Below, one piece after another: positions 1 through 56,289 of a stretch of 64,000 nt of DNA; position 1 is the first letter of the stretch, and each line of letters opens with the position of its first letter. The stretch is from Aquiflexum balticum DSM 16537 (GTDB lineage: Bacteria > Bacteroidota > Bacteroidia > Cytophagales > Cyclobacteriaceae). The stretch is from positions 992,001-1,056,000 of the forward strand of contig NZ_LT838813.1 of NCBI RefSeq assembly GCF_900176595.1. Direction: 5' to 3'. The notes under the pieces are model-generated. The model was not told the DNA's origin. It searched no databases and saw only the letters and a program-made list of their open reading frames with translations. A program made the translations under genes and the position numbers.

Positions 1-2
1 AC

Positions 3-332
3 ATTGGTGGAAATATTTCTGCGCTACCGTACTCTTGTGCTTTACGTGCTGGCGGTAGTTATAATTATTTAGTAGTAAACGGTGTTAGGCGTTTAACGGA
101 CAGAGAAATGTTGCGTTTGCAAGGTTTTCCAGACACTTTTAAAATTAATCTTCCTTATTCACAAGCACGAAAAGTTGCGGGAAATTCTGTTTCTGTTCCT
201 GTAATAAAAGCAATTGCAGGAGAAATAATGAATGCTTTACAAGCAAAAAAGAACGCAGTAAAAGAAACAATTCAATTAACTTTATTAGAACCAAAAAATG
301 AATATACAAGAAGCAAAGCAAGCGTTAGATAA
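3..332 (+). CDS. DNA (cytosine-5) methyltransferase, C-terminal part (cut by window edge)
   Basis: The frame is open from base 3, so this is the end of a longer gene. The translated tail contains LTDREMLRLQGFPD followed by ARKVAGNSVSVPV. These correspond to the C-terminal conserved motifs IX and X of C5-cytosine methyltransferases, including the GNSV/P motif that helps build the AdoMet pocket. The catalytic PCQ motif lies outside the window. The last 35 bases overlap the start of the HaeII-type endonuclease in another frame, as is typical of a coupled restriction-modification pair. By its partner, the enzyme probably methylates RGCGCY-type sites to protect host DNA; that specificity is inferred, not read from this fragment. 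It belongs to the first visible cassette of the array. Confidence 0.85.
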   Translation: MGGNISALPYSCALRAGGSYNYLVVNGVRRLTDREMLRLQGFPDTFKINLPYSQARKVAGNSVSVPVIKAIAGEIMNALQAKKNAVKETIQLTLLEPKNEYTRSKASVR

Positions 333-1353
333 AGTAATTGACAAAGCAAGGGTACATCTTTATAAACCAATTCAAGTAGCAGAAATTTTACATAGAGATA
401 GAATCGAAAAAGATATTACACTATCTGACCTTACCACGTATCGAACAACTTCAAAAAAATGGCGTGATATTGTTTGCATTCAGTTTTTAGGAAGAACAAG
501 TACTTCATCTGCCCGTTATCAAGAAGATGTTTTCAATGACAACGCAGTTCCTCCGACCGTTCTCGATATACTTGGAAAAGAAAATAGAACAAAAAATGGA
601 ATTGTAGAAGCGTATGTTTATCGCAAATTCCTTGAACGCTTTAGTCAAATGTCGACAGGGTTAGATTACACAATCACACACGACAAAAGTAATTTTAAAC
701 TCGATGAGTTTCTTGCAATGTTTTGGAATGAGCCAGGTCTCCGCAGAAGCATTGATAAGATTTATGAAATAATTGTTTATTCACTTTTTTCTGCATTAGT
801 TGAAGCACTTGAAGTTTCAGTAGAAGTAAGTATGAATCCAAATAAAACCGACATCCTAAAAGAATTTGAAGATTTTGCTAAAAGTGTAATTCAGTTAACG
901 CCTGCACAAACAACTATTAAATTAAAAGCAAGAATAAATCGAGTTGGTGTAACGAATGCGGCTGACAGAGGACTTGATATGTGGGCTAACTTTGGACTTG
1001 CAATTCAGATTAAACATTTGTCCCTCACAGAAGAACTTGCAGAAAATATTGTTTCCTCTGTATCGGCTGACCGTATCGTTATTGTATGTAAGGACACAGA
1101 AGAAAAAATTATCGTTTCTATCCTTAATCAAATGGGGTGGAAATCTAAAATACAAAGCATAGTAACCGAAAGTCATTTATTAGCTTGGTATGAAAAGGCA
1201 CTAAGAGGGAAATATGCAAAAACTATTGGCGACAAAGTTCTTAAAAATCTAACGGACGAAATACAAGTTGAATTTCCAGCGACAGACAATAAAGAATTTT
1301 TGAAATTTATAAAGCAAAGAGGTTACGACAAGTTGACCGACAAGAATTGGTAG
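298..1353 (+). CDS. HaeII-family type II restriction endonuclease
   Basis: This 351-residue protein begins MNIQEAKQALDKVIDKAR and has the run KPIQVAEILHRDR, then WRDIV, GRTSTSSARYQED and NAVPP. I recognise this pattern from the HaeII restriction endonuclease family, which cleaves RGCGCY. The recognition site is taken from the family and was not tested. The ATG overlaps the methyltransferase gene by 35 bases in a different frame, so the two are translationally coupled. The stop codon is followed 15 bases later by the R'' box of the first attC-like site (1368-1376), which places the restriction-modification pair in one cassette. The gene is AT-rich compared with the core genes further right, consistent with transfer. 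Confidence 0.8.
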   Translation: MNIQEAKQALDKVIDKARVHLYKPIQVAEILHRDRIEKDITLSDLTTYRTTSKKWRDIVCIQFLGRTSTSSARYQEDVFNDNAVPPTVLDILGKENRTKNGIVEAYVYRKFLERFSQMSTGLDYTITHDKSNFKLDEFLAMFWNEPGLRRSIDKIYEIIVYSLFSALVEALEVSVEVSMNPNKTDILKEFEDFAKSVIQLTPAQTTIKLKARINRVGVTNAADRGLDMWANFGLAIQIKHLSLTEELAENIVSSVSADRIVIVCKDTEEKIIVSILNQMGWKSKIQSIVTESHLLAWYEKALRGKYAKTIGDKVLKNLTDEIQVEFPATDNKEFLKFIKQRGYDKLTDKNW

Positions 1354-1367
1354 ACGAACAAAGGGCA

Positions 1368-1504
1368 GCGCCTAACAGCACCTACAAGAAATTGGCGGTT
1401 CAGTGCTTCGTATGACAGTTTTGTGGTTAATCAAACATTCGTTCTTCGTATGAACATTTGTGGTAAAAATCGCCAACTTCTTGTAGCTGCAAACCGTTAT
1501 GGGC
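1368..1504 (+). other. attC-like recombination site 1 (137 bp)
   Basis: The left box GCGCCTAAC (1368-1376) matches the R'' consensus RYYYAAC. The right box GTTATGGGC (1496-1504) is the R'-like end. Between them the arms at 1382-1400 and 1468-1486 are complementary over 19 positions with two mismatches (CTACAAG...TTGGCG against CGCCAA...CTTGTAG). The middle carries two related segments containing TTCGTATGA. The first bases of the R' box match the reverse complement of the R'' box at 3759-3767, the far end of the next cassette. Confidence 0.75.
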
Positions 1505-1545
1505 AACCGTTTGGCGACCCTGCAACATCAAACAAACAGGACAAT

Positions 1546-3729
1546 ATGAAACAACTTTTACTTATTTCAACCGCGACACTGATTACAGTGACAGCATTTG
1601 GACAAACAACAACCGACACAACTAAAACTCACGAACTTTCTCCTGTGACGGTTCAAGGCAGTCACATACCACAGGACATTCAACGACTTGAGCCAATACA
1701 AGGCACTTACATTTATTCAGGTAAGAAGAGCGAAGTAATTGATATGACCCAAAAGAATGTTGCTATGACAGAGAAATACGGCAGACAGATTTTTGCAAAA
1801 ATACCGGGGGTGTTTGTCTACGATATGGATGGCACAGGCAATCAAGTAAACATTTCTACTCGTGGACTTGACCCGCACCGAGGTTGGGAATTTAATATCC
1901 GTAAAGACGGCATTCTCACCAACTCTGATATGTATGGTTATCCCGCCAGCCATTACAATATTCCAATGGAAGCAGTAGAACGTATTGAATTAGTGAGAGG
2001 TACTGGCTCATTGCAATATGGCGGGCAATTTGGCGGTATGCTCAATTATATTAGCAAACAACCAGATAGTACTCAGAAAATTTCATTTGAAAGTATAAAT
2101 ACAATTGGCTCCTACGGTTTGTTGAGTACATACAATAGCCTTTCTGGTAAAGTTGGTAAAATTCGATATTCCGCTTGGATGAATAAAAAAGCTTTAACTG
2201 GTTATAGAGCAAATAGTGAATCACAGTTTAACGCAGAGGGGATTTCTATTTATTATGATGCCACCAAAAATCTTCAATTTAAATTTGATTGGACACATTC
2301 CAATTATTTGACTTCTCTTGCTGGTGCATTGGATGATAGTTTATTTCGATTAAATCCAAGAATGGCTACACGTTCACGTAATTATTATAATCCAAACATT
2401 CACGTGCCATCTATAAAAATGGATTGGAAAATTTCTGCTTCCACACAATTAAGCCTTACCACCTCTGCTGTTCTTGGGACAAGGAATAGTGTAATGTTTG
2501 ATAAACCAGCTACGGTAAATGACACCATCAATCCTGCAACACTTCAATATAGCAATAGGCAAGTAGATATTGATAATTACAATAGTTATACAACTGAGCT
2601 ACGAGTGCTTCATTCCTATAAATTTCTAAAAAGGAAAAACTCGATTTCCGCAGGAATACAATATATGAATAATGATATGCGTAGAAGACAGCAAGGTGTG
2701 GGAACAACAGGAAGTGATTTTGATTTGACATTAGTAACTCCGGCCTGGGGAAGAGATCTTAATTTCAGAACCAATAATATAGCCATTTTCGCTGAAAACC
2801 TTTGGGTACTTTCGGATAAGTTTTCCATAAACACAGGAGCGAGAATCGAAATAGGGAAAAGCGATTTGACAGGTACTACCGCTTATTATCTTGATAGCGA
2901 GCTTCCCAATCAAATAAAACATAGTTTCCCGCTTTTTGGCGTAAATGCTCAATACAATATTAACCAAAGAATAAATCTATATGCGGGTTGGTCACAGGCT
3001 TACCGCCCTGTAATTTTAAAAGACATTGTCCCTCAATCTGTATTTGAAATAACCGACAATAATTTAAAAGATGCTTTTGGCTACAATGCCGAATTGGGCT
3101 TTAGAGGTAATTGGAAATTCTTAAAATGGGATGCAACGGCTTTTTATGTGCAGTATAATAATCGTTTAGGAACTGTTGCACAAACTGATACAGCTGGAAA
3201 TCTTACTATTTTCAGAACCAATATAGGTAATTCAAACACCAAAGGACTTGAGCTATTTTTACAGTCCGACTTCACCTTTGGAAATAAAGTTTTATTATCC
3301 TTGTTTACATCAACTTCCTTAATGGATGCACGTTATCAAGACGCAAGCATAAGAAGTGTTAATGAAAATGTAAATGTGAGTGGCAATAAGGTGGAAAGCG
3401 TGCCTGCACTCATCACACGAATTGGCGCAAATTTACAGTACAAGAAAATCCGCATTTCTATATTGTATAGTTATACGACAGAAAGTTTTGCGGATGCATT
3501 CAACACGACCATTCCTCCTGCAAGTGGTGCAACTGGTTTAGTTCCATCATATCAATTACTTGACCTAAACGTAGCTTTCAAAATTACTAATGAAGTAAAT
3601 TTACAATTCAATTTAAATAATGTATTGAACGAGTCCTATTTCACAAAGCGACCCCAATTTTATCCAGGTCCTGGCATATGGCCATCAGACGGACGGACTT
3701 TTTCAGCAACAGTTTTGGTAAAAATATGA
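1546..3729 (+). CDS. TonB-dependent outer-membrane receptor (FecA-like), carried as a cassette
   Basis: Translation from the ATG at 1546 gives 727 residues with a clean signal peptide (MKQLLLISTATLITVTAFGQ); an in-frame codon at 1423 would put attC sequence into the protein, so I reject it. A plug domain follows, with IPGVFVYDMDGTGNQVNISTRGLDP and a VERIELVRGTGSLQYG stretch. The rest is a 22-strand-type barrel ending in a terminal aromatic/hydrophobic strand (FSATVLVKI). There is no carboxypeptidase-like N-terminal extension and no SusD partner, which fits the siderophore/ferric-citrate class better than the glycan class. The substrate is unknown. The gene is bracketed by GTTATGGGC (1496) and GCCCATAAC (3759), so it forms a single 2.3-kb cassette, large for this kind of element. 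Confidence 0.87.
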   Translation: MKQLLLISTATLITVTAFGQTTTDTTKTHELSPVTVQGSHIPQDIQRLEPIQGTYIYSGKKSEVIDMTQKNVAMTEKYGRQIFAKIPGVFVYDMDGTGNQVNISTRGLDPHRGWEFNIRKDGILTNSDMYGYPASHYNIPMEAVERIELVRGTGSLQYGGQFGGMLNYISKQPDSTQKISFESINTIGSYGLLSTYNSLSGKVGKIRYSAWMNKKALTGYRANSESQFNAEGISIYYDATKNLQFKFDWTHSNYLTSLAGALDDSLFRLNPRMATRSRNYYNPNIHVPSIKMDWKISASTQLSLTTSAVLGTRNSVMFDKPATVNDTINPATLQYSNRQVDIDNYNSYTTELRVLHSYKFLKRKNSISAGIQYMNNDMRRRQQGVGTTGSDFDLTLVTPAWGRDLNFRTNNIAIFAENLWVLSDKFSINTGARIEIGKSDLTGTTAYYLDSELPNQIKHSFPLFGVNAQYNINQRINLYAGWSQAYRPVILKDIVPQSVFEITDNNLKDAFGYNAELGFRGNWKFLKWDATAFYVQYNNRLGTVAQTDTAGNLTIFRTNIGNSNTKGLELFLQSDFTFGNKVLLSLFTSTSLMDARYQDASIRSVNENVNVSGNKVESVPALITRIGANLQYKKIRISILYSYTTESFADAFNTTIPPASGATGLVPSYQLLDLNVAFKITNEVNLQFNLNNVLNESYFTKRPQFYPGPGIWPSDGRTFSATVLVKI

Positions 3730-3758
3730 TGACAGAATTTCGAGGAAAGAATACGGCA

Positions 3759-3894
3759 GCCCATAACATCACCTATACGCAAGCAGGGGTTTCGTGCTTC
3801 GTAGGACAGGAAAGTAGTAAATTTAAGGTTCAGTTCTTCGTAGGATGTTCAGTGGTAAAAATCCCTGCCTGCGTATAGCTGAAAAGCGTTGAAC
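3759..3894 (+). other. attC-like recombination site 2 (136 bp)
   Basis: The R'' box GCCCATAAC (3759-3767) is the exact reverse complement of the R' box that starts this cassette at 1496. The arms at 3773-3792 and 3857-3878 pair (CTATACGC...GCAGGG against CCCTGC...GCGTATAG) with few mismatches. The R' box GTTGAAC (3888-3894) fits GTTRRRY exactly. The middle has GTGCTTCGTAGGACAG and TTCTTCGTAGGATG, closely related to the middle of site 1. Confidence 0.75.
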
Positions 3895-4012
3895 TAAACC
3901 TCCTTCGTCGGTAGTTTTTCTGTATTCCATCATAAAGGCCTGATTTTTAACAATATGTATTAAATTTATTCCATGTTCAATCTTTAACTAATTTAATCAT
4001 GGAAAAAAAAGT

Positions 4013-4834
4013 TTGCGCCAGAGGATGTATGAGGAGATGTCCTACAGACATTATTCTCCCAGAAGCATCAAGACCTATCTTAGCCTGGTATCTGTAGTAT
4101 CAGCTCATTTTGGAAAAAGTCCGGATCTGATCAGTATCCCCGAATTAAAGGACTACCTTTTTAAAAGGATCAGTTTGGACGGACTTTCGGTATCAAGCAT
4201 CAACCAGACAATCAGTGCCTTTAAAATACTTTTCAAAGACGTGCTTGAAAGAGATTGGGATACTATCAGGATCAAACGGCCAAGACGTCCCAAGCTGCTT
4301 CCGGTTGTATTCTCAAAGGAAGAAGTGTCGCTTATCCTTAAGAGTATCAGGAACAGAAAGCACTATTGCCTGATAGCCCTTACCTACGCCTCGGGGCTCA
4401 GGCTTGGTGAGGTGATCAGTCTCAAGCCCGGCGATATAGACAGTGACAGGATGCAGCTTAAAGTGAGGGGAGGCAAGGGATACAAGGACAGGTATACCCT
4501 TCTGCCCCATAAGTTACTGGTACAGCTTCGGGATTACTTCAAAAGCTACCGTCCGGTTACTTATCTCTTTGAAGGGCAGGTGCCGGGAAAGCCATACAGC
4601 GAAAAAAGCGCACAGTCTGTTCTGAAAAAGGCCATGGAATGTGCCGGAATAACAAAGCATGCCTCTTTCCATACCCTGCGGCATTCCTTCGCCACGCACC
4701 TGCTCGAGCAGGGGACCAATGTCAGGATAATCCAGGAACTCCTGGGACACAGATCCCTTAAGACCACTACGGTCTACCTGCATATCTGCAATCTGGATCC
4801 GGCCCTGATCAAAAGTCCCCTGGATGAGCTTTGA
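4013..4834 (+). CDS. Tyrosine recombinase associated with IS91-like transposase
   Basis: The protein has about 270 residues: an N-terminal SAM-like core-binding domain (YSPRSIKTYLSLV) and a C-terminal catalytic domain. The catalytic residues are visible as an Arg in ASGLRLGEV, a Lys in GGKGYKDR, H-x-x-R in HTLRHSFATHLLEQG, H in LLGHRSLKTT and the nucleophile in TVYLHI. It ends SPLDEL, like integron integrases, but it lacks their extra segment between patches II and III, so I call it XerD-like. The start is uncertain. Position 4013 is TTG, the next in-frame ATG is 4025, and an ATG at 3999 is in another frame separated by a run of eight A residues, where slippage could join the frames. The stop codon shares a base with the transposase ATG. 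Confidence 0.85.
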   Translation: MRQRMYEEMSYRHYSPRSIKTYLSLVSVVSAHFGKSPDLISIPELKDYLFKRISLDGLSVSSINQTISAFKILFKDVLERDWDTIRIKRPRRPKLLPVVFSKEEVSLILKSIRNRKHYCLIALTYASGLRLGEVISLKPGDIDSDRMQLKVRGGKGYKDRYTLLPHKLLVQLRDYFKSYRPVTYLFEGQVPGKPYSEKSAQSVLKKAMECAGITKHASFHTLRHSFATHLLEQGTNVRIIQELLGHRSLKTTTVYLHICNLDPALIKSPLDEL

Positions 4835-6006
4835 TGGATGCTGTCAACAAGAGGAATGGTGGGGCCGAACTCTCAACAGTCCTGGATTCCCAAAAGGAGG
4901 TCTTCCTGTCGCAGAAGCATCTGTGCCCTGATCAGAGAAAGGCCTTTAACGACATCCTCCATTGCCGGACATCACAAATGGGCTCACACAGTCTCTGTTG
5001 TGACTCCTGCGGTACGGTCAAAGTCTGCTATAACAGCTGCAGGAACCGTCACTGTCCGAAGTGCCAGTACATCAAGCAGCAGTTGTGGGTGGAAAAGCTA
5101 AAGTGCAGGCTTCTGCCTGTCAGGTACTTTCACGCCGTGTTTACGGTTCCTGAGTTTCTCAATCCATTGTTCTACATCAACCAGAGGTTCTGTTACAACC
5201 TGCTCTTTGAATGTTCCGCAAAAGCAGTAAAGAAGACTGCCCTGAACCCTGCCTTTCTGGGAGTCGAAAGCGGCTGTCTGTCGGTACTCCACACCTGGGG
5301 ACAGTCCCTGAACTACCACCCCCACATCCATATGCTGGTTCCTGCAGGAGGCCTTGACAGTGACGGGATGCAGTGGCTGTATGCCGGCAAAAAGTTCTTC
5401 GTTCCGGTAAAGGCCCTTTCGGCTGTGTTCCGGGGACTGTTCATGGAAAGGCTTCTGGGAGCACTGGAGGATAACCTTCTCAGGATACCCGGAGGTCAAA
5501 AAGAGCTGTTTGCCGATATCAATAGTCTGAAAAGGGAATCTTACGCAAAGATGTGGAATGTCTATATCAAGAAGACCTTCAGGGGGGCGGGCCAGGTGGT
5601 CAGCTACCTTGGCAGGTACACCCACAGGGTAGCGATCAGCAACAGCCGTATTCTGGATACAGATGGTGAAACCGTAAAATTCAGGTGGAAGGATTACAGG
5701 GACAACAAAACCAAAACCATGTTGCTTGCCTGTTCCGAGTTTGTCAGAAGATTTATGCAACATGTACTGCCAACAGGCTTCTACAAAATCCGCTATTACG
5801 GCATCTTGGCCTCGGCCAACAGCAACACCAAAATGAATGAATGTTTCAGGCTGTTGAACATAACAAGGGAGGTGTCATTTTACCATGGGCTGAGCACCTA
5901 CGAGGTGATGGAGGAGATTTTCGGAGAAGAGATGTTCAGGTGTAGCTGCTGCAAGAACGGAAGGATGGTCTTTGCCACGCCCGAAGGAAAAGCAAATGGT
6001 CCCTGA
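4834..6006 (+). CDS. IS91-family transposase (HUH/Y2 rolling-circle type)
   Basis: The 390-residue protein starts at the ATG overlapping the stop of the recombinase (TGATG junction), so both are translated from one message. An N-terminal zinc-binding region (CDSCG...CYNSCRNRHCPKCQ) is followed by the HUH motif in HPHIHMLVPAGG. Then comes the region YLGRYTHRVAISNSRI characteristic of IS91 transposases, and a short C-terminal CSCCKNG. These proteins nick one DNA strand and move by rolling-circle replication. The length is normal and I see no frameshift. Base composition is richer in G+C than the neighbouring cassettes, as expected for an element of separate origin. Confidence 0.92.
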   Translation: MDAVNKRNGGAELSTVLDSQKEVFLSQKHLCPDQRKAFNDILHCRTSQMGSHSLCCDSCGTVKVCYNSCRNRHCPKCQYIKQQLWVEKLKCRLLPVRYFHAVFTVPEFLNPLFYINQRFCYNLLFECSAKAVKKTALNPAFLGVESGCLSVLHTWGQSLNYHPHIHMLVPAGGLDSDGMQWLYAGKKFFVPVKALSAVFRGLFMERLLGALEDNLLRIPGGQKELFADINSLKRESYAKMWNVYIKKTFRGAGQVVSYLGRYTHRVAISNSRILDTDGETVKFRWKDYRDNKTKTMLLACSEFVRRFMQHVLPTGFYKIRYYGILASANSNTKMNECFRLLNITREVSFYHGLSTYEVMEEIFGEEMFRCSCCKNGRMVFATPEGKANGP

Positions 6007-6209
6007 ATGAAAAAGCAGGGATGAAGTTCTTTGAAAAGCTGAAAGAAAAACAAAACAGAGGTTCTGTTACAGGGAAAGGTATGCCCGGTCCCAAACAAAA
6101 TTTCCGGGTAAAAAAGCGGAATCCGTCCAAAACTTCAGGACAATGGTCCAAAACCAGACAAAACCTTCAAAGCAAAGCAGATAAATACCCATAGGTGTAG
6201 CACGGCTTA

Positions 6210-6301
6210 GTCCAACTATGTTTTAAACGCAATCTTGAAACGCCAATTTATTTTGGCTATTTTTTTGGCTAGATTGCGTCTAAAACACTTTACGTTAGTG
6301 G
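6210..6301 (+). other. attC-like recombination site 3 (92 bp)
   Basis: The R'' box GTCCAAC (6210-6216) fits RYYYAAC. The extended TTAGTCCAAC matches the reverse complement of the start of this cassette (3888-3897) at 9 of 10 positions. The arms 6220-6237 and 6269-6286 pair over 18 positions (GTTTTAAACGCAATC against GATTGCGTCTAAAAC). The R' box is GTTAGTGG (6294-6301). It is shorter than the other sites because the variable middle is only about 30 bases. Confidence 0.7.
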
Positions 6302-6323
6302 CAAGGCTATGACGACAAACACA

Positions 6324-7232
6324 ATGAAAAACATATTGACAATATTAATCGCACTTTTTACTGTTTTGACCTCATTTGGGCAACAGAAAAATTGTTGTGA
6401 CACATACGTTTACGAAGGTTACATTCTGACAGACCAGAACAAACGACTCGAAATAAATCTGAATTTTTTAGTTCTCCTTGACTCGACAACGGTAGGTTCA
6501 TATTACTACAATCCGAATTGGGGTTCACTAAAATTGGTCGGAAAATTAAATGCGGACAATTCATTTTACTTAATTGAACGCGATAAATCAGACAGCATTA
6601 CAGGTTACTTCAATGGACAACTTGAACCTGAATTCAAAAAAGCAACGGGTAAATGGACAGATGGACAAAAAAGTAGAACTTATACTTTTGAAATCAATCA
6701 AGTAATTGGAAAGTCATATTGGGACTTCATTAAAAAAAATCGAGCTCTATTTGAATACACCGACATTAAAACAGCTATTAAGGAAAAGGAAAAAGTGCTT
6801 AGTATTGACGTTGCAAGTCAAGGACTGAAAAAACTTCCCAAAAAACTTTCTCGGCTTGACAAAATTGTTTCAATAAATCTTTTAGGAAACGAATTTGAAT
6901 CCTTTCCAACTGTTTTGAGCAAGTTGACAACCTTAGACGAAATATCTTTAAGTTCAAACAACTTAAAATACGTAGGGTCAGAAATTGGTAATCTAAAGAA
7001 TTTACGAATTTTAATAATGAACAACAACCAATTGACAGAATTACCGAAAGAAATTGGCGAGTTGACAAACCTACTATATCTAGAAATCGGGAATAATCAA
7101 TTAACAACATTACCAGAAGAAATTAAGTATTTGACAAGCCTCCAGGAATTGCATATTGAGAGAAATAAACTAAGCGACAAGGAGAAAGAAAGAATTAAAA
7201 AATTATTGCCCAAATGCGTAATACACTTTTGA
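6324..7232 (+). CDS. Secreted leucine-rich-repeat protein, carried as a cassette
   Basis: The ATG at 6324 starts a signal peptide (MKNILTILIALFTVLTSFGQ); an upstream ATG at 6309 would add five residues before it. Residues from about 20 to 150 form a domain I do not recognise. The C-terminal half carries about five leucine-rich repeats, for example LKNLRILIMNNNQLTELPKEI and LTNLLYLEIGNNQLTTLPEEI, ending in a short cap. Such repeats bind proteins. The export signal puts the protein in the periplasm or on the surface; the ligand is unknown. The cassette starts with GTTAGTGGC (6294) and ends with GCCACTAAC (7247), an exact nine-base complement. Confidence 0.8.
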   Translation: MKNILTILIALFTVLTSFGQQKNCCDTYVYEGYILTDQNKRLEINLNFLVLLDSTTVGSYYYNPNWGSLKLVGKLNADNSFYLIERDKSDSITGYFNGQLEPEFKKATGKWTDGQKSRTYTFEINQVIGKSYWDFIKKNRALFEYTDIKTAIKEKEKVLSIDVASQGLKKLPKKLSRLDKIVSINLLGNEFESFPTVLSKLTTLDEISLSSNNLKYVGSEIGNLKNLRILIMNNNQLTELPKEIGELTNLLYLEIGNNQLTTLPEEIKYLTSLQELHIERNKLSDKEKERIKKLLPKCVIHF

Positions 7233-7261
7233 CAGAAGAAAGCCCAGCCACTAACAGGCGT

Positions 7262-9058: not shown

Positions 9059-9180
9059 ACAGGCGTTTGGCTCAATGGCGGGTGAAGTGGTTAATTGAAC
9101 ATTCTACCTCGCATCAGCTTTTGTGGTGTATTGACAGTTTTGTGCTCCGAAATCCACCACTGCGCCAAGCGCCAAAACGT

Positions 9181-10903
9181 CAGACTGTCTAAAAACCCCG
9201 CCTTGTGGTGAGAAGTAATTTCACACTTTTTCTATGGGATATATAGGGTAATTTTTGTAAATTCTAGCATGAAATTCATACAAGGCACTGACCGCACCCA
9301 GCTTGCGCTTTTCCCCACCTGCCTGGACGATTCCCTTGATTCTGACAACGAAACCCGCCTTATCGATCTGTTTGTGAACTCCATTGAGTTAAAGTCTTTT
9401 GGTTTTGAGATGGACTTTGTCGACAATGGCAGGCCTGCCTATCATCCCGGGGACCTGCTAAGGCTTTTTATCTACGGATATCTCAACAGGATCAGAAGTT
9501 CCAGGGCATTGGAAAGGGAATGCAAACGCAACATCGAGCTCATCTGGCTCATGAAGGGACTCGTTCCCGACCACAATACCATCTCCAATTTCCGCAGGGA
9601 TAACCCTTCCGCTATCAAAAAAGTATTCAGGGCCACCGTGCAGATGGCCAGACATTTTGAGCTGATCGGTGGAACTCTCATTGCCGGCGACAGTACCAAG
9701 CTCCGCGCCCAGAACAGCAAGAAAAACAACTTCAACGCCAAAAAGATCGAAAGGCACCTTGCCTACATCGAAGAAAAGCTTTCCAGGTACCAGTCTGAAC
9801 TTGCCCAAGAGGACGGGGACAGTACACAAAAGGAAACCATCGCCACGGAGATCGAAAAGCAGTCCGGGCGCCGGGCAAAATACGAATCCCTCTTGGAAAA
9901 GCTTGACAGCAGCGACCAGGAGCAGATTTCCACGTCTGATCCCGACAGCAGACAGATGGTCATCCGCAACAACATCACCGAAGTGGCATACAATATCCAG
10001 TCCACCACGGATGCAAAGCACAACATCCCGATCGACTTCAAGGTGACCAATAACAATGATTCCAAGGCCATGGGGAACATGGTCAGAAGGGCCAAAAGCA
10101 TACTTGGGACAAACAGTTTCACAGTTCTGTTCGACAAAGGCTACCATACAGGCAGCGAAATCAGGACAGCCATAGAACTTGGGGCCGAAGCCATAGTTGC
10201 CATACCCGCTGTCAGCGGTTCCAGTATGGCCCCGGATCCGGCCTACAATGTTTCGGAATTCAGATATGATCCAAAAAACCGCACCTATACCTGCCCACAG
10301 GGAAACACCCTGTCCACCAACGGATCATGGTACAATAAGGAAAGGGGCGGTCCCTCCCGGAAATCAGCAAGCAGCGTAAGGGTGCAGCACTTCAAGACCA
10401 AGGCCTGTCAGGCCTGTCCCGCCCTTGCCAGCTGCACCAAAAACACCCGTGGAAGGGGTAGGGTCATCGAAAGGACGGAGCATCAGGACTTCATCGATGC
10501 CAACAGAAGAAACGTGGAGCAGAAGGAACACCTTTACAAACGGAGGCAGGCAATCATCGAACACAACTACGGAACCATCAAAAGACAGTGGAACTTCCAC
10601 TACATCATCACCAAAAAAGGCAAGGACAGGGCCTCCTCGGATGTTGGGTTCATGTTTGTGGCCTATAATCTTCGAAGGATATTCAATCTTGTCGATCAGG
10701 AAGCATTGAAAAAGTATCTGAAGATGCTTTGGCTTTGTTTTTTGGCCATACTGGACTTTTTAAGAGTCCGAAAGAAGCTTATACAGCGATGTGAAATTTA
10801 CAGATTCCATAACTACCAATTTCTACAGCCCCACCCAAATTCAAGGAAATGGGCTTATATTTAGACTATACAAAAAGATAACGGAGGTTTTTGGACAAAC
10901 TGC
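9181..10903 (+). mobile_element. IS1182-family insertion sequence B
   Basis: The terminal inverted repeats are CAGACTGTCTAAAAACC (9181-9197) and GGTTTTTGGACAAACTG (10886-10902), complementary at 14 of 17 positions. CGT is present on both sides (9178-9180 and 10904-10906). The element sits directly beside the R' box of attC-like site 4 and so splits the recombination point of that site. It is unrelated at its ends to element A, so the two insertions are independent events in the same site. Confidence 0.7.
9269..10864 (+). CDS. IS1182-family transposase
   Basis: The 531-residue protein has the N-terminal run HPGDLLRLFIYGYLNRIRSSRALE and LVPDHNTISNFRRDN. The DDE core includes LIAGDSTKLRAQNSKKNN and VLFDKGYHTGSEIRTA. 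A cysteine motif CQACPALASCTKNTRGRGRVIER and a final EHNYGTIKRQWNFHYI helix follow. A coiled-coil stretch lies between the first catalytic Asp and the second. This matches the IS1182 branch with a long insertion after the first Asp. The frame is intact, so the element may be active. Confidence 0.93.
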   Translation: MKFIQGTDRTQLALFPTCLDDSLDSDNETRLIDLFVNSIELKSFGFEMDFVDNGRPAYHPGDLLRLFIYGYLNRIRSSRALERECKRNIELIWLMKGLVPDHNTISNFRRDNPSAIKKVFRATVQMARHFELIGGTLIAGDSTKLRAQNSKKNNFNAKKIERHLAYIEEKLSRYQSELAQEDGDSTQKETIATEIEKQSGRRAKYESLLEKLDSSDQEQISTSDPDSRQMVIRNNITEVAYNIQSTTDAKHNIPIDFKVTNNNDSKAMGNMVRRAKSILGTNSFTVLFDKGYHTGSEIRTAIELGAEAIVAIPAVSGSSMAPDPAYNVSEFRYDPKNRTYTCPQGNTLSTNGSWYNKERGGPSRKSASSVRVQHFKTKACQACPALASCTKNTRGRGRVIERTEHQDFIDANRRNVEQKEHLYKRRQAIIEHNYGTIKRQWNFHYIITKKGKDRASSDVGFMFVAYNLRRIFNLVDQEALKKYLKMLWLCFLAILDFLRVRKKLIQRCEIYRFHNYQFLQPHPNSRKWAYI

Positions 10904-10989
10904 CGTTATGCACTATTCTAAAAAAGAGGTACCTAAGAATAAAATGACGGAAATTTTGTAAATTCGTCGAAGGATTAAAACCAAAACAT

Positions 10990-11211
10990 ATGTTTGCTAC
11001 AATCGAAATTGATAGGAATAACCTGACGATAATGGGAGTGAAATTTTCAGATTTAAAGACATTAGAAAGCACAGCAAATGCTTTAGGAAGTAATATGTAT
11101 GAAGGTTTTATACCTACACCCAAAGGGGTTGAAATAATCAGGGATTATGTAAAAGGGAAAATTTCATTGAGTGAATTGGTGAAGTTTGCGGAAGAAAAGG
11201 CTTATGTCTGA
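10990..11211 (+). CDS. VbhA-like antitoxin of a Fic module
   Basis: This is a 73-residue protein immediately before a Fic protein. It contains S34-N-M-Y-E38-G39, which matches the class I Fic-inhibition motif (S/T)xxxE(G/N). In known structures the Glu of this motif blocks ATP binding in the Fic active site. The C-terminal half (IIRDYVKGKISLSELVKFAEEKAYV) resembles the VbhA fold. The last eight bases overlap the Fic gene, so the two are translationally coupled with the antitoxin first. Function is inferred from motif and context. Confidence 0.8.
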   Translation: MFATIEIDRNNLTIMGVKFSDLKTLESTANALGSNMYEGFIPTPKGVEIIRDYVKGKISLSELVKFAEEKAYV

Positions 11212-11809
11212 TTCCTATAAGTACATAGACTTTGATTATACTTATGTAGACCCAAAAACAGGAATTTTAAAAAACATTCCGGGAATTACAGATCCGGAAG
11301 TATTGCTTTTTGTTGAAAGTGGAGCAGTAACAAAACGACTTCAGGAACTTTACAATAGTCCCATTAAGATTAAAGGAGTTGAAAACCTTTTTGATATTCA
11401 CAAGCATTTGTTTCAAGATATATATATCTGGGCTGGCAAAAAACGGGTTGTGGAAATAAGTAAGGATGGAAAACAATTTTTTCCTACCACCCATTTTGAT
11501 AATGCCAGTAGCTACATTAATTCTTTAATAGCTGACTACAAGAAAATTCGAAAAAACAGAAGAAAAGAATTAGCAGAGAAGTTAGCCGAAATTTTAGATA
11601 ATGTAAATTATTTTCATCCCTTTAGAGAAGGTAACGGACGTGCACAAAGAGAGTTTTTAAGGTTATTGGCCTTGGAAAAAGGGTTGATTCTGAACCTAAA
11701 CCCTCCGGACAATAAAAGTGTGTTTGAAAGATATATGAAAGGAACAATAGAGAGTGATTTAGAAATATTGAAAGAATTGATTTTTGAACTAATTGCCTCA
11801 AAAAAATGA
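11204..11809 (+). CDS. Fic-domain AMP-transferase toxin
   Basis: From the ATG at 11204, which overlaps the antitoxin stop, the protein has 201 residues. A frame starting at 11186 would reach further into the antitoxin gene and is less likely. The complete active-site motif HPFREGNGRAQR is at residues 138-149, so the His and the phosphate-binding GNGR are intact. Ahead of it are the Fic-typical FDIHKHLFQDIYIWAGKKR and the flap region near FFPTTHF. Active Fic enzymes of this layout attach AMP to target proteins; VbhT and relatives target DNA gyrase and topoisomerase IV. The target here is unknown. Antitoxin and toxin fill one cassette (10905-11827). Confidence 0.9.
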   Translation: MSDSYKYIDFDYTYVDPKTGILKNIPGITDPEVLLFVESGAVTKRLQELYNSPIKIKGVENLFDIHKHLFQDIYIWAGKKRVVEISKDGKQFFPTTHFDNASSYINSLIADYKKIRKNRRKELAEKLAEILDNVNYFHPFREGNGRAQREFLRLLALEKGLILNLNPPDNKSVFERYMKGTIESDLEILKELIFELIASKK

Positions 11810-11817
11810 ATAAGAAC

Positions 11818-11971
11818 AGTGCATAACATCACCTTGGATACAGCGGGCGGTTCAGAGTAAATTGAAAGTTTAGAACCTTTAAGAAGTTAGGAGTAGGTTG
11901 GAAGAGAACGGCTCCGAATGCTTGCCTACCGCAGGCAGGCCCGCCGTCTCCAAGCTGAATCACGTTGCAAC
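11818..11971 (+). other. attC-like recombination site 5 (154 bp)
   Basis: The R'' box lies in AGTGCATAAC (11818-11827), the exact complement of GTTATGCACT at 10905-10914. Extending outwards, 14 of 15 bases match. The arms 11833-11850 and 11940-11954 pair (CTTGGATACAGCGGG against CCCGCCGTCTCCAAG). The R' box is GTTGCAAC (11964-11971). The site is almost a copy of site 7 but carries about 20 extra bases forming the small palindrome TGCCTACCGCAGGCAGGC near 11923-11940. Confidence 0.75.
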
Positions 11972-12112
11972 CTTTTGAAACACACAGGCGGCTTGGCGCA
12001 GAAACAATTACACTTTTTAGCTTAGTTAAATGTTTTAACAATCTCAAGACAACAACTTACATTTCTGAGAACAGAATTTTTAAATAAATTTGATAATTAA
12101 CAGCAAGGTAAA
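11972..12112. other. Cassette leader with possible remnant of another attC-like site
   Basis: This 141-bp stretch before the DUF6557-type gene contains ACACAGGCGGCTTGGCGCAG, which resembles the left arm of site 4. I find no partner arm. The cassette starting here (GTTGCAAC) does not match the end of the gene's cassette (GCAGCTAAC), unlike the other cassettes. A deletion that fused two cassettes would explain both observations. Confidence 0.3.
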
Positions 12113-12652
12113 ATGAAACTATATGACCTAATAAAATCAAATAATTGGTTTAGCATTGAGCTGACCTTGCTAAAACTGTATCCCGACCAAGACAAAATGC
12201 TTGATGAATACAGAAACGTTTATGAGAAACTAAAAATAACCGATCCGGCTGACTATGACGAGTTAGAAATTATTTTGACAGAGTATGACTGCGACCCAAA
12301 CTTTGAGAGTGAAAAAGAAACATACGTTGACGTTTCAGGACAGAAAAAAATACCAGACCCAACTGCAATTACTAACAGTTACGCAATAGAGTTTTTAGAG
12401 TGGGACAAATGGCTCGGTATGGACTTGGCAGTAGAGACAATTAAAAACTTTTCAGACTTAGAAATAATAGCTCATAGCCTTTACGAAATGACTTATATCG
12501 ACTATGACGAAGAAACATTTCAAGAACAACTTAAATCTCTGAATGACACCGTAGAAGAATATAAAAAACTAACACAAGAAGAGAAGAAACAAAAAACTAT
12601 ATCTCTTGACGAACTAAAAAGACGACTTGATGAAAAGAAAGGCAGCAGCTAA
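12113..12652 (+). CDS. DUF6557-type cassette protein of unknown function
   Basis: This is a 179-residue soluble acidic protein with no signal peptide. The pattern WFSIELTLLKLYPDQ, then YVDVSG, then AIEFLEWDKWLGM and FSDLEIIAHSLYEMTYIDYDE agrees with what I remember of the DUF6557 family. That family has no known activity and is often found in accessory DNA. The C-terminus is a charged helix (EEYKKLTQEEKKQK). Its stop codon TAA lies inside the R'' box of attC-like site 6, an arrangement common in compact cassettes. No partner gene shares the cassette. Confidence 0.7.
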   Translation: MKLYDLIKSNNWFSIELTLLKLYPDQDKMLDEYRNVYEKLKITDPADYDELEIILTEYDCDPNFESEKETYVDVSGQKKIPDPTAITNSYAIEFLEWDKWLGMDLAVETIKNFSDLEIIAHSLYEMTYIDYDEETFQEQLKSLNDTVEEYKKLTQEEKKQKTISLDELKRRLDEKKGSS

Positions 12653-12779
12653 CAGCAGCTACCCAAAAGTGGAGGTGACGTGCTCCGTAGGATATTTTTT
12701 TTATATATAAACAGCAATTCTTCGAGGAATGAAAGGTGTGGAAAAGCACCACCTTTGGGTAGCTTCGAACCGTTGGCGA
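12645..12779 (+). other. attC-like recombination site 6 (135 bp)
   Basis: The R'' box is GCAGCTAAC (12645-12653) and the R' box GTTGGCGA (12772-12779). The arms 12659-12677 and 12747-12762 pair (CTACCCAAA...GTGG against CCACCTTTGGGTAG). The middle carries GTGCTCCGTAGGAT and ATTCTTCGAGGAATG, again related to sites 1 and 2. Confidence 0.72.
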
Positions 12780-12794
12780 AAATTGAAAAAACCC

Positions 12795-13265
12795 ATGCAA
12801 AGTAATAAAACATATCAAACAATTTTTAAATTCGGATTATTAGGAATCGGAATTCTTTTTTTGGTTATTTCCGTTTTTTCATGGTTTTTGCCTCAATTGA
12901 TTGTAATGAACGGAGAGTCAATTGAAAGAGATTTTGTCATAACTATGGTTTTCATTATAATCGGGGTTTTTCAAATTATAATCTTCTTTTTGATCAAGAA
13001 TAAATTTGTTTTGGCAAACATGGGGAATCAATCAATAGTAGTTAAGAATGGGGAATGGGAAGAAATTGTAAACTGGCTAGATGTTGAATCTTTATATTTA
13101 ATACAGTTTGTTTACCCACCCCTTTACAGGATTAAGATAAAAGGAATTGAGAAAACGTTTTGGTTTAACACTGAAAATCACTTTGTCAATGCAGGTGGAT
13201 TTACTACTGATTTAAGTAAGAGGGGAGACCTGATTCAGAAAAAGAAAAGAGAATTAGGAATTTAA
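12795..13265 (+). CDS. Small membrane protein with two transmembrane helices
   Basis: The ATG at 12795 is preferred; an in-frame codon at 12729 lies inside attC-like site 6. The 156-residue product has hydrophobic segments at about residues 11-33 (FGLLGIGILFLVISVFSWFL) and 48-69 (VITMVFIIIGVFQIIIFFLI). A soluble C-terminal domain of about 85 residues follows, with a PH-like beta pattern (SIVVKNGEWEEIVNWLDVESLYLI). I do not recognise a family. It is the first gene of a cassette that also holds the VapB/VapC pair, separated by about 55 bases. Confidence 0.65.
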   Translation: MQSNKTYQTIFKFGLLGIGILFLVISVFSWFLPQLIVMNGESIERDFVITMVFIIIGVFQIIIFFLIKNKFVLANMGNQSIVVKNGEWEEIVNWLDVESLYLIQFVYPPLYRIKIKGIEKTFWFNTENHFVNAGGFTTDLSKRGDLIQKKKRELGI

Positions 13266-13321
13266 TTCACTAAATCTTTTGACCATCAAACCATTAATTT
13301 CGTAAATTGGATAAAAAAAAT

Positions 13322-13564
13322 ATGGCAAACCTCACTTTAAACAACAAGACATTAGAAAAGTACTTCGGTCTCTTGAAAGGTTTGGATAATCTTTCCAAGA
13401 AAAAGCTGATCATAAAATTGACTGAATCTCTTGATATAAAAGAAGAGAAGGTGGAAATTCGGACGCTTTTTGGCGCATGGGAAGATGATAAAGATTCGGA
13501 CGAAATCATTAAAGAAATTAGAGAATCCAGAATAGAAAAAACAGAAAATCCTGGTTTCGAATGA
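13322..13564 (+). CDS. VapB-like antitoxin
   Basis: The 80-residue protein starts at ATG 13322; an in-frame TTG 15 bases upstream is less likely. The C-terminal WEDDKDSDEIIKEIRESR is the toxin-binding tail usual for antitoxins of PIN-domain toxins. The N-terminal half is helical with basic residues and may bind DNA. Its stop overlaps the toxin start (ATGA), which couples the two. By analogy with VapBC modules, it would neutralise the toxin and repress the shared promoter. Confidence 0.75.
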   Translation: MANLTLNNKTLEKYFGLLKGLDNLSKKKLIIKLTESLDIKEEKVEIRTLFGAWEDDKDSDEIIKEIRESRIEKTENPGFE

Positions 13565-13959
13565 ATTATCTTTTAGACACTAATATCTGCGTCCATTTTT
13601 TAAGAGGGAAGTATGGATTGATAGAAAAGTTTCAGGAATTAGGAACTGAAAACTTTGCTATTTCTGAAGTTACGTTTGCTGAACTAGTATTTGGAGCTGA
13701 AAACAGCACTAATCCCAAAAAGAATCTTGAATTAATAGAAGTTTTTACCAATCAAGTTCTGATCCTTCCGATTTTCAGTGCCATTTACCTTTATGGAAAA
13801 GAGAAAGCCCGATTAAGGTCAATAGGACTGATGATAAGCGATTTTGATCTATTAATCGGTTGTACTGCTGTGGATAAAGATCTGATCATGGTGACCGAAA
13901 ATCGAAAGGAATTTGAAAGAATTTCTGGAATTCAATTGGAAAATTGGGTAAAGAGATAG
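13561..13959 (+). CDS. VapC-family PIN-domain toxin ribonuclease
   Basis: The 132-residue PIN-domain protein starts MNYLLDTNICVHFLRG. Acidic metal-binding residues are D6, E41 in FAEL and D94/D96 in SDFDLLIGCTAV, and the final VTENRKEFERI strand is the usual VapC end. Such toxins cut tRNA or rRNA when the antitoxin is degraded. The length and motifs are complete. Together with the membrane-protein gene it lies between R' at 12772 and R'' at 13969, so a toxin-antitoxin pair is again part of a cassette. Confidence 0.9.
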   Translation: MNYLLDTNICVHFLRGKYGLIEKFQELGTENFAISEVTFAELVFGAENSTNPKKNLELIEVFTNQVLILPIFSAIYLYGKEKARLRSIGLMISDFDLLIGCTAVDKDLIMVTENRKEFERISGIQLENWVKR

Positions 13960-13968
13960 GATAAACTT

Positions 13969-14107
13969 TCGCTAACATCACCATGGATACAGTGGGCGGT
14001 ACCGAGTAAATTGAAAAATCAGGATCTTTAAGAAGCTAGGAATAAGCTTGAATAGAACGGCTCCGAAAGCCCGCCGTCTCCAATCTGAATCACGTACCGT
14101 TATAGCC
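13969..14107 (+). other. attC-like recombination site 7 (139 bp)
   Basis: The R'' box TCGCTAAC (13969-13976) extends as TTTCGCTAAC, which matches the complement of the start of this cassette (GTTGGCGAAA at 12772) at 9 of 10 positions. The arms 13982-13999 and 14070-14084 pair (TGGATACAGTGGGCGG against CCCGCCGTCTCCAAT). The R' box is GTTATAGCC (14099-14107). The body is nearly identical to site 5. Confidence 0.74.
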
Positions 14108-14119
14108 AATTAAACTAAT

Positions 14120-15685
14120 ATGAAAACTTATAAAATAATTTTTGTCTGCACCTTCATAATTAATGGAATCCTTGGGTGTCAGACCAGTGAGGAACCATCT
14201 CCGATAAATCTTCAAGAACTTACAATCCAGAATATTCATAAGGCTTTCAAAGATGGTGATTACAATAGTCAAAAATTGGTTTCAGCTTATTTGGAAAGGA
14301 TTAAAAACCTTGACCCATCCATAAACGCTATTAACTCAATCAATCCAAATGCACTAAACATTGCTAAAGAACTTGATGAGGAATTTGAGCACACCAAGGT
14401 GCTCCGCCCACTTCATGGGATACCTGTGATCGTTAAAAACAACATACAATCCAAAGGGCTTGAAACTACTGCCGGGTCACTGGCATTACAAAATTTCAAA
14501 CCTGAGAGTGACGCATTCATTATTTGTAAGTTGGTAGAAGCTGGTGCCATAATCCTGGGCAAATCAAATATGGCTGAATGGGCATTTACTCCGTGGGGAT
14601 CGTATAGCTCAACAAATGGTGCAACTTTAAATGCCTATAATCAAGAATATACTTCTGCGGGCTCAAGTGGTGGAACGGGGGCTGCCATCGCTGCCAATTT
14701 TGGTGTAATTGGATTAGGAACAGATACGGGCGGTTCAATACGTTTACCCTCATCTCATGGATCGTTAGTGGGTTTTAGGCCAACGATGGGTTTGGTGAGT
14801 CGATCCGGAATTATTCCATGCCAGCTTCGACAAGACATGGCCGGCCCTATGTGTCGGACCGTTGAAGATGCAGCAAGAGTTCTAGAAGTCATTAGCGGTT
14901 ATGATGAAGAAGATGATTTGACTTCATATTCTAATGGGAGAATACCTGATAATTATATTCAGTTCCTTGACAATGAAGGCTTAAAAGGATCAAGAATTGG
15001 GGTTCTGTGGGAAATAGCTGAAGTCGATATTGACCCTGAAATATTGGCACTTTTTGAAGAAGCCATTGAGGATATGAAGAAGCTCGGTGCAGAGATCATT
15101 GATCCTGTAGTCATTCCAAATTTTGCATTGCTTCGTAAGAACCATTGGTGTGAAAGTTTCAGATCTGATATTGAAAACTACCTGATTAAAAATGTTAAAA
15201 ATGACACGATTCGAAAACTTGAGGATTTAATTCGGATTGGTTCAAAATCAAAGTTCACAACAGAGACTTTAAACTTTTCTGCAACTCATAATGGCCGCCC
15301 TGAGAATATAGAAATTTCATGTTTGGATGCGTATTCTGATCTAAATAGAATTGCATTTCGAGAAGCCATTGAAAACTATATGGATTCAATGCGATTAGAT
15401 GCTCTCATTTATCCAACCTGGAATATAAAACCTTACAGGATGGATTCAATAGTTGAGGAATACACTGGCGAAAATACCGGGGCTGTTGCACCTCACACAG
15501 GTCAACCAGCATTTACAGTTCCCATGGGTTTTATGCAAGATAACTTGCCGACAGGAGTGGAATTCCTTGGACGTATGTATTCAGAACCGATATTAATCAA
15601 ACTTGCTTACTCTTATGAACAAGGAACAAAGCATAGAAGAAACCCAAATTTAGAAAAGGCTATGACAAAAGATAAAATGCATTAA
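14120..15685 (+). CDS. Amidase-signature family lipoprotein
   Basis: The 521-residue protein starts with a lipoprotein signal (IINGILGC, Cys20), so it is anchored to a membrane. The amidase-signature domain has its Lys in PVIVKNNIQ. The Gly/Ser-rich motif SAGSSGGTGAAIAANFG and the GTDTGGSIRLP strand supply the cis-Ser and the nucleophile Ser. The Ser-Ser-Lys triad is therefore complete. It hydrolyses an amide bond, but the substrate cannot be read from sequence. The cassette begins at GTTATAGCC (14099), and the last codons run into GGCTATGAC (15658-15666), which complements that start at 8 of 9 bases. Confidence 0.92.
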   Translation: MKTYKIIFVCTFIINGILGCQTSEEPSPINLQELTIQNIHKAFKDGDYNSQKLVSAYLERIKNLDPSINAINSINPNALNIAKELDEEFEHTKVLRPLHGIPVIVKNNIQSKGLETTAGSLALQNFKPESDAFIICKLVEAGAIILGKSNMAEWAFTPWGSYSSTNGATLNAYNQEYTSAGSSGGTGAAIAANFGVIGLGTDTGGSIRLPSSHGSLVGFRPTMGLVSRSGIIPCQLRQDMAGPMCRTVEDAARVLEVISGYDEEDDLTSYSNGRIPDNYIQFLDNEGLKGSRIGVLWEIAEVDIDPEILALFEEAIEDMKKLGAEIIDPVVIPNFALLRKNHWCESFRSDIENYLIKNVKNDTIRKLEDLIRIGSKSKFTTETLNFSATHNGRPENIEISCLDAYSDLNRIAFREAIENYMDSMRLDALIYPTWNIKPYRMDSIVEEYTGENTGAVAPHTGQPAFTVPMGFMQDNLPTGVEFLGRMYSEPILIKLAYSYEQGTKHRRNPNLEKAMTKDKMH

Positions 15686-15710
15686 AACACATTTTATCAA
15701 ATCGTTAAAT
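15658..15710 (+). other. Candidate short, diverged attC-like site 8
   Basis: GGCTATGAC (15658-15666) matches the complement of the amidase cassette's start with one change in the otherwise constant AAC. A perfect nine-base stem GATAAAATG/CATTTTATC (15671-15679, 15690-15698) follows, then ATCGTTAAAT, whose GTTAAAT fits GTTRRRY. The topology fits an attC, but the site is only 53 bp. The hairpin could instead be a weak terminator. Confidence 0.35.
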
Positions 15711-16096
15711 TGCTAAATCCAAATCGTTTTTAACGGTACCTGACCCCTTCCCCCCATAAAAACTCTTCATAATCTCAAAACTACCAGAAAATCCATGCCT
15801 CTCCCTGAGGTAAATTTTTGTGGTTTGGACGGTTGAATGGGCTAAGATCAGGCGGATTTCTTCTTCTGAATAGCCGAAGTAAGCCATATGATTGGCCAAG
15901 GTATGTCTTGGAACATGACTAGTCAACCCTTCTATTCCAAGGTTTTCACCGATTCGTTTTTACGAACCATTATGACGGGTTATGGCTCTTTGGATAAGGT
16001 ATTCCTGTTCTTTGGTGAAGTTTGATTGGTTTTCTAGCGCATCCCTGAAATCACCGAAATCTAATTGGGGAAAATAAATCTTACAGGTAAGCATTG
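15705..16096 (-). pseudogene. Decayed tyrosine recombinase, C-terminal remnant
   Basis: On the minus strand, 15705-15926 encodes a tyrosine recombinase C-terminus. It has the HxxRH box in TSHVPRHTLANHM, the second His in ILAHSTVQTT and the nucleophile Tyr in KIYLRERHGF. Upstream in the same frame there is a stop codon (about residue 11 before this segment) and then about 45 residues with no recombinase features. The core-binding domain and the first catalytic Arg are missing, so the gene is dead. It lies where the cassette array gives way to ordinary chromosome. Confidence 0.7.
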
Positions 16097-56168: not shown

Positions 56169-56289
56169 TTGGTTTAGTCCTTAATTGCTTAGAAATTAAC
56201 TTTGTACCAAAATGACATTTGACCATTTTTACTTTTCATCCATTTAAAATTTGGATAACGAGCATTTCAGACTAGATTTGCATCAAGAT

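Follow-up and report, generated by a model that had tools for sequence, protein, structure and literature searches.

What fills a row of gene cassettes in a genome where no protein reaches the cut-off for an integron integrase of the IntI type? This question is raised by the left end of a 64,000-nucleotide stretch of the Aquiflexum balticum DSM 16537 chromosome (the window in what follows; positions 992,001 to 1,056,000 of NZ_LT838813.1, the single 5,987,095-base contig of assembly GCF_900176595.1). An earlier reading of the letters, made without database searches, had placed an integron-type cassette array here and had deduced from its polarity that attI and an integrase should lie to the left. 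Both proposals were confirmed by structure-aware matches, by cassette ends that complement each other and by a tyrosine recombinase gene on the expected side. We conclude that the region is very probably a chromosomal integron whose integrase lacks the I2 helix of IntI and would act on folded attC sites. The sequence evidence comes from the array itself, the structure of its attC sites, the closure of its cassettes, the attI breakpoints, the adjoining integrase gene and the turnover of array content, together with the lack of I2 and of any IntI above cut-off.

The array, designated C, is of integron type and spans ~31 kb (genome 974,892 to ~1,006,100), so that the window contains its right-hand 14 kb. 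We scanned 204 kb, made up of the window and 140 kb to its left. The integrase gene (genome 973676-974788; window ~ -18,324 to -17,212, ~18 kb left of the window) encodes a tyrosine recombinase of 370 amino acids (aa), and the first cassette begins 103 bp past its stop codon. A second array of the same genome, B, starts 93 bp past the stop of a gene for a 465-aa tyrosine recombinase (genome 1192708-1194105). Both integrases adjoin the left ends of their arrays and are oriented toward them.

All seven attC sites claimed on the + strand of the window are present, with the crossover G at 1496, 3888, 6294, 10905, 11964, 12772 and 14099. We searched for them with a hairpin scan (YAAC, stem, CGTTR, so that the boxes are demanded by the scan itself) and with a covariance model, R1, built from 23 attC sites of other genera. 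In the 204 kb, 12 hairpins on the + strand scored >=28, against none on the - strand; ten of the 12, each scoring >=30, belong to the array (977.2-1004.8 kb). When the sequence was shuffled 20 times, the copies yielded 11 hairpins at >=28 altogether, including 4 at >=30 (~0.2 per copy). The other two hairpins of the real sequence, both scoring 28.0 (genome crossovers 967681 and 993078), are not among the array's sites and are taken to be false positives; the one at 993078 is within a restriction gene and entered the closure test as a false site. Such inverted repeats are rare outside the array in the 204 kb; their random occurrence between core genes had been named beforehand as a refutation. 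R1, a structure-aware search of the kind proposed with the original claim, reported four matches in the window at E<=1, all on the + strand and all at array sites (1367-1505, 3758-3897, 9052-9188 and 12644-12781; best E 4.9e-10), and no match at sites 6294, 11964 and 14099. The scan recovers five of the seven sites, and scan and model jointly six.

Individually, attC 1 (1367-1505; R1 E=4.9e-10, scan 43.5), attC 2 (3758-3897; E=1.4e-9, 46.5) and attC 6 (12644-12781; E=3.7e-7, 35) were seen by both methods, and attC 3 (6205-6303; 34) and attC 5 (11818-11973; 36) by the scan. attC 3 is the 3' site of an element carrying a recombinase and an IS91-type transposase, and its R'' box pairs with the 5' end of that same element. 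attC 4 is split over 7247-10913 by two insertion sequences, whose junctions were read directly: R'' and the first bases lie at 7247-7261, the body at 9061-9180 (R1 match 9052-9188, E=6.6e-9) and the R' box, with crossover 10905, after both insertions at 10905-10913. attC 7 (13964-14108) was read directly; its hairpin score is only 20.5, with 4 extra bases before the R' box, and it was accepted because of its closure and its likeness to site 11964. An eighth candidate had been proposed to close the array. Its sequence is present as read (GGCTATGAC, a 9-bp stem and CGTTAAATTGC, at 15658-15712 on the + strand), with CGTT, with GAC instead of AAC, and overlapping the amidase stop codon; neither the scan nor R1 reported it.

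The sites have RYYYAAC and GTTRRRY boxes, imperfect palindromes and a single direction, as attC sites do. Among 115 distinct attC sites, 43 fit one register of a 20-pair stem, and R1 thus covers part of the variety. In this register, stem position 7 is T-A in 42 of the 43 sites, position 15 is an A.C mismatch in 38 and position 12 is paired in only 12. The 23 training sites were taken from the 37 in-register sites outside the source genome, near-duplicates being dropped by eye. In their alignment both partners vary in 19 of the 20 stem pairs, and the covariation score was 0.613 (0.151 shuffled, 0.035-0.076 for slid pairings), a value inflated because the 23 sites were chosen for pairing in that register. 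In 380 kb of the source genome R1 gave 14 matches, all on the + strand and all within arrays A, B, C, F and G or next to them. A whole-genome search with the RNA model gave 4 weak matches among the 150 scored of 1654 first-look candidates, which is not a genome count. Folding with DNA parameters, also suggested beforehand, gave the bottom strand the more stable structure in 81 of 115 sites and the top strand in 31. We also observed that the tenth position past the crossover G is A in 92% of the 115 sites, and that the complement of the cassette's own 3' end agrees with it in only 14% of 80 pairs; on these counts the R box has a fixed base at its edge that does not pair.

If cassettes insert as circles, the bases that follow GTT at the 5' end of a cassette should pair with those that precede AAC at the 3' end of the same cassette. 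We tested this closure in 80 adjacent site pairs of 27 arrays, drawn from 45 arrays with 125 sites in a set of named loci and in the genome's own arrays A, B and C; 15 of the 80 pairs are from the source genome, six of them copies of one element. The named loci are 80 stretches, mostly from Bacteroidota, kept from 112 confirmed stretches that match the 465-aa protein. On average 6.09 of the 8 positions beyond GTT match, compared with 2.58 in shuffled pairings (maximum of 1000 shuffles 3.05) and 2.66 of 8 when R'' and R' of the same site, which belong to different cassettes, are compared. Boundaries between cassettes fall at G^TT. Some failures among the genome's own pairs are explained by the split attC 4, by introns in R' boxes of array B and by the one false site, whereas that of the DUF6557 cassette is real. 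In a second sample, 20 integrase regions picked down the list of the class with preference for contigs with room, 22 of 23 adjacent pairs closed at >=6 of 8 (shuffled mean 3.03, maximum 4.0). The array of Pollutibacter soli is very regular, with 13 sites in 10 kb and all 12 closures at 7-8 of 8.

In the window, the closure claimed for the receptor, IS91-element, leucine-rich-repeat, Fic and VapBC cassettes stands, as does its claimed failure in the DUF6557 cassette. The genes are on the + strand unless stated. The first is the right part of a HaeII-type restriction-modification cassette (1-1353; methyltransferase tail 1-332, restriction enzyme 298-1353), which begins at genome 991212 and runs into the window. 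Its genes match Pfam RE_HaeII (2.4e-158) and the PADLOC type II methyltransferase (2.2e-126) and REase_II (3.8e-163), and its ends close (GTTAGGCGC/GCGCCTAAC). The receptor cassette (1496-3887), whose ends also close, holds a TonB-dependent receptor gene (1546-3729; Pfam TonB barrel 3.2e-31, Plug 8.9e-11). It is followed by the recombinase and IS91 element, itself in the place of a cassette (3888-6293), with a tyrosine recombinase at 4013-4834 and an IS91-type transposase at 4831-6006 (Pfam Y2_Tnp 1.5e-64, Zn_Tnp_IS91 2.3e-28). The leucine-rich-repeat gene (6309-7232; Pfam LRR_14 3.1e-15) belongs to a cassette of 6294-10904 (GTTAGTGGC/GCCACTAAC) that is broken by the two insertion sequences. 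Both encode DDE transposases, at 7372-8931 on the - strand, within attC 4 (Pfam DUF772 1e-16, DDE_Tnp_1_6 2e-15), and at 9269-10864 (5.2e-20 and 7.7e-15), the second insertion sitting at the CGT of the attC 4 R' box.

The next cassette (10905-11963) holds a small open reading frame (ORF; 10990-11211) and a gene (11195-11809) whose Fic label comes from the sequence-only reading and which matches the PADLOC candidate family PDC-S04 (3.7e-49); it closes by eye (GTTATGCACT/AGTGCATAAC). The DUF6557 gene (12113-12652; Pfam 6.7e-50) lies in a cassette of 11964-12771 with two non-complementary ends, which may be a fusion with a decayed attC. Next come an ORF of ~156 aa and VapB-like (13307-13564) and VapC-like (13561-13959) genes, together at 12795-13959, in a cassette that closes (GTTGGCGAAAATT/AACTTTCGCTAAC). 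The VapBC label is likewise from that reading; the first two ORFs had no Pfam match and the third no PADLOC match. The last cassette-like unit carries an amidase gene (14120-15685; Pfam Amidase 2.4e-98). To the left of the window, array C contains an 8-kb cassette with SIR2, HerA and a type III restriction pair, and another with a gene that is hydrolase-like by eye only. Phage-defence or restriction genes (SIR2-HerA, type III and HaeII-type) are present in several cassettes.

An attI can be recognized by comparison. After the integrase stop codon a mostly palindromic stretch ends at GTT, and there the similarity ends, in 20 of 21 named relatives and in two loci of the source genome (breakpoints read by eye); the remaining relative, Arundinibacter, showed no attI-like stretch ending its similarity at GTT. 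Arrays B and G, in both of which the recombinase and IS91 element is inserted, have an attI closely similar to that of Aquiflexum lacus, which is followed by another cassette, and two Cognataquiflexum species share one attI with different cassettes. The sequence-only reading had suggested comparing cassette content between relatives. In a genome of the same genus the array C locus is kept: identity is 97.7 and 98.9% for the neighbours, 91.5% for the next gene outward and 74.6% for the integrase. No ORF of its five-site array matches the proteins of the A. balticum arrays at 1e-15. Array content therefore turns over at a fixed locus, as it does in integrons. The relative thus has the locus without the genes, and with the structure-aware matches and the scarcity of such hairpins elsewhere, none of the outcomes named beforehand as refutations occurred. 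At genome 707019 and 2974227 an attI-like sequence is followed by the element or by cassettes, with no integrase gene seen alongside; these sites may be platforms that have possibly lost their integrase.

The integrase is not of the type that had been expected, an IntI with the additional patch III. No protein of the source genome reaches the TIGR02249 cut-off of 265 bits; the 370-aa protein scores 199.8, the 465-aa protein 212.7 and a third recombinase of the genome 204.8. Catalytic and SAM-like domains are clear in both integrases. In an alignment to IntI4 (2a3v), residues ~180-242 of IntI4, the region of patch III, have no counterpart, so that patch III and I2 are lacking. The spacing from the catalytic R to H.LRH is 91-96 in 86 of 87 family rows (the outlier, 205, is a misplaced motif; 4 rows had no motif, and 6 of the 80 loci, with ORFs <250 aa, were dropped), compared with 133 in all 11 measured IntI rows (a twelfth lacked the motif) and, for Xer, 94-98 in 4 rows. 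Ahead of the SAM-like domain lie one or more modules in which tryptophans are conserved (W39 and W46 in the 370-aa protein). The 370-aa protein scores 226.5 against NF040815 ("site-specific tyrosine recombinase/integron integrase"; cut-off 220), so automatic annotation may already use that name for it; the 465-aa protein, at 216.5, is below. Results with a strict pattern for an SPLD ending like that of IntI were mixed, and the pattern was not used.

A tree of 48 rows, in which Xer is represented by XerC and XerD, groups the family together with the recombinase of the IS91 element (support 95/92) and IntI by itself (100/98), and splits both from Xer (100/100). Two predicted structures (confidence 82.8 and 85.2) have pTM values of 0.46 and 0.59, at which the domain arrangement is not to be trusted. 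The structural matches cover the recombinase part: the top three Foldseek matches are IntI4 chains, and VIA-align places archaeal Xer, XerA and IntI4 within ~2 Z of one another.

Proteins of this kind are common. At E<=1e-40 the 465-aa protein is matched in 31 of 59 related genomes, and a 25-row profile finds members at E<=1e-60 in 151 of 295 sampled genomes of the class Bacteroidia and in 94 of 296 genomes of a phylum sample. Canonical IntI above cut-off is present in one of the 295 and in 84 of the 296, which indicates that IntI in the phylum sample belongs mainly to other classes. Integrons of this kind had been called rarely described in Bacteroidota; with the family in half of the class genomes sampled and arrays beside many members, the set-up is no local rarity. 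The orientation of hairpin sites also goes with that of the integrase: in the 80 named loci we counted 96 on the + and 14 on the - strand downstream (421 kb), and 7 and 13 upstream (635 kb); the second sample gave 21 and 3 downstream and 2 and 18 upstream.

Several observations weigh against this interpretation. An array is not visible beside every family member: of the 74 loci that extend >=3 kb to a side, only 37 show co-directional sites and four a divergent array, which is the classical layout; the count is 28 of 42 for loci with >=3 kb downstream (38 of the 80 have less), and in the second sample 12 of 20 regions have one or more coherent sites and 9 have two or more. R1 gave just five matches at E<=0.5 in 34 loci outside its training set, indicating that attC sequences diverge. 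The branching between the family and IntI is open in the tree, and one other recombinase falls on the same side. Some matches in both profile lists begin after the N-terminal module, which is therefore not universal. The module resembles Pfam HARP only weakly: 16 of 40 members match, all below the Pfam cut-off (best E 0.0015). HARP domains of SMARCAL1-type proteins bind structured DNA, which we treat as a lead rather than a result; a literature search on HARP yielded nothing. The published view (PMC7790495) holds I2 to be necessary, and the lack of I2 here contradicts it.

The array could instead be a CALIN, a cluster of attC sites lacking an integron integrase, whose cassettes were once put in place by a canonical IntI acting from elsewhere, with the neighbouring recombinase being incidental. 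Arrays A (707 kb), F (3208 kb) and G (2974 kb) have no adjoining integrase in the stretches read, and CALINs are described as common in bacteria (PMC9024848). However, the source genome has no IntI at cut-off and a single one of the 295 class genomes has one, while a family member stands directly before attI in arrays B and C and in relatives with other cassettes, and family members adjoin arrays in both samples. We consider this explanation unlikely.

The recombinase and IS91 element itself suggests another builder. At least 16 copies are present, for which 16 left and 16 right ends were located exactly; they start with GTTGAACTAA and end in a hairpin before GTTR, which flanks all 16 on the right. 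By reading, attC sites hold six of the copies, attI-like sites four and other places six; four are within array C. In another family of the same order, 7 of 9 listed copies of a related element were examined, and all seven start with the similar GTTGCACTAAACC and end in GTGCAAC, a hairpin and GTTR. IS91-family elements target GTTC or CTTG, which is similar to GTTR. A HUH transposase might copy hairpin-ended segments beside GTTR, the attC-like hairpins being its end signals. We give this even less credence than the CALIN explanation: of the 24 named-locus arrays that have a site pair, 23 gave no match to an IS91-type gene (1e-10) over the stretch read, yet their cassettes close all the same, and the element's recombinase falls inside the integrase clade and is itself a family member. 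The fixed 5' end, the hairpin and GTTR indicate rather that this element type is itself built like a cassette. Near genome 4877702/4877703 (within 4870001-4886000) two copies stand head to head with no base between them. That the hairpins, standing between co-directional genes, are transcription terminators or repeat-type palindromes with coincidental closure is already contradicted by closure beyond 1000 shuffles in two data sets, by breakpoints at GTT, by orientation tied to the integrase and by the strand bias in folding, and has next to no probability left.

Our best reading is an overlooked integron lineage with an integrase that would use folded attC sites without I2. The adjacent tyrosine recombinase would insert cassette circles at attI through folded single-stranded attC, by analogy with known integrons; the long complementarity of R'' and R' and the paired stems are hard to explain by double-stranded exchange, which points to folded single strands. 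The family would be related to IntI, with patch III and the I2 helix replaced by one or two N-terminal modules. With less certainty, the N-terminal module or other surfaces might stand in for I2 by reading those positions of the attC stem that are conserved and unpaired; that the module takes over the role of I2 is speculative. On this reading a related recombinase beside an IS91-type nuclease gene has become a self-mobile cassette that spreads into attI, attC and other GTTR sites. A fuller account, which we think somewhat more plausible than its opposite, is that a second lineage, I2-free and chiefly from Bacteroidia within Bacteroidota, uses its module to read single-stranded or branched DNA and the stem mismatches, represents either the state before I2 or an independent solution, and was missed since searches use IntI profiles.

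So widespread a family without I2 beside attC arrays would mean that gene capture of the integron type is frequent in a phylum from which it was reported as scarce. With the SIR2-HerA, type III and HaeII-type restriction genes that they hold, the arrays may carry defence genes from one member of the Bacteroidota to another. Integrons have been recorded in the phylum before (PMC8618304, PMC9668308 and PMC2426708). PMC9024848 mentions that an earlier survey found only array-less integrases in the phylum and that IntegronFinder 2.0 then found one complete integron, in Salinibacter. No publication on integrases like these was found in our literature search, which did not reach subscription journals and preprints.

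Just past the right end of the array, a short ORF on the - strand (15705-15926) is similar by eye to the C-terminal part of a tyrosine recombinase and is perhaps a recombinase remnant. A thiamine pyrophosphate (TPP) riboswitch lies at 56284-56380 of the window (68.3 bits, gathering score 54.3). Elsewhere in the genome, 3202001-3216000 holds another array, in which a group II intron and a SIR2 gene (PADLOC 1.3e-62) are present. Group II introns were found four times in five loci searched; all four begin inside an R' box after attC, and the rest of the R' box of the next cassette follows the intron.

How does array C compare with known systems? These introns resemble group IIC-attC introns in being located at attC sites, but they differ in lying in the R' box, on the top strand and in the direction of the cassettes; the typical ones use R'' of the bottom strand, with one top-strand case mentioned in PMC7923331. 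CALINs are like arrays A, F and G and unlike arrays B and C, which have an integrase and attI. XerC, XerD and XerA share with the family the catalytic and SAM-like domains and an R-to-H spacing without insertion, whereas XerC and XerD form a separate clade, and we know of no link between Xer and attC arrays. Some IS91-family elements carry an additional tyrosine recombinase, and the element here is like them in joining a recombinase to a Y2 transposase with a zinc-binding domain; unlike them, it has an attC at its 3' end, an R'' that pairs with its own 5' end and copies in cassette arrays.

The closest likeness is to IntI integrons such as class 1 and the Vibrio superintegron: an integrase gene, an adjoining attI, a one-way array, varied cassettes with complementary ends, attC R boxes that end in AAC and start at G^TTR, and a bottom strand that usually gives the more stable fold. 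In contrast to IntI integrons, the integrase here lacks patch III and I2, scores below the IntI cut-off, carries N-terminal modules and in many loci points toward the array, while the complementarity reaches 9-10 bases and in-register stems carry fixed mismatches. In the accepted account (PMC7790495), integrases gained the use of single-stranded attC through the I2 helix, which is said to be absent from all other proteins; the missing intermediates are a limit named by the authors of that account. A widespread relative that lacks I2 and stands beside attC arrays makes the account directly testable.

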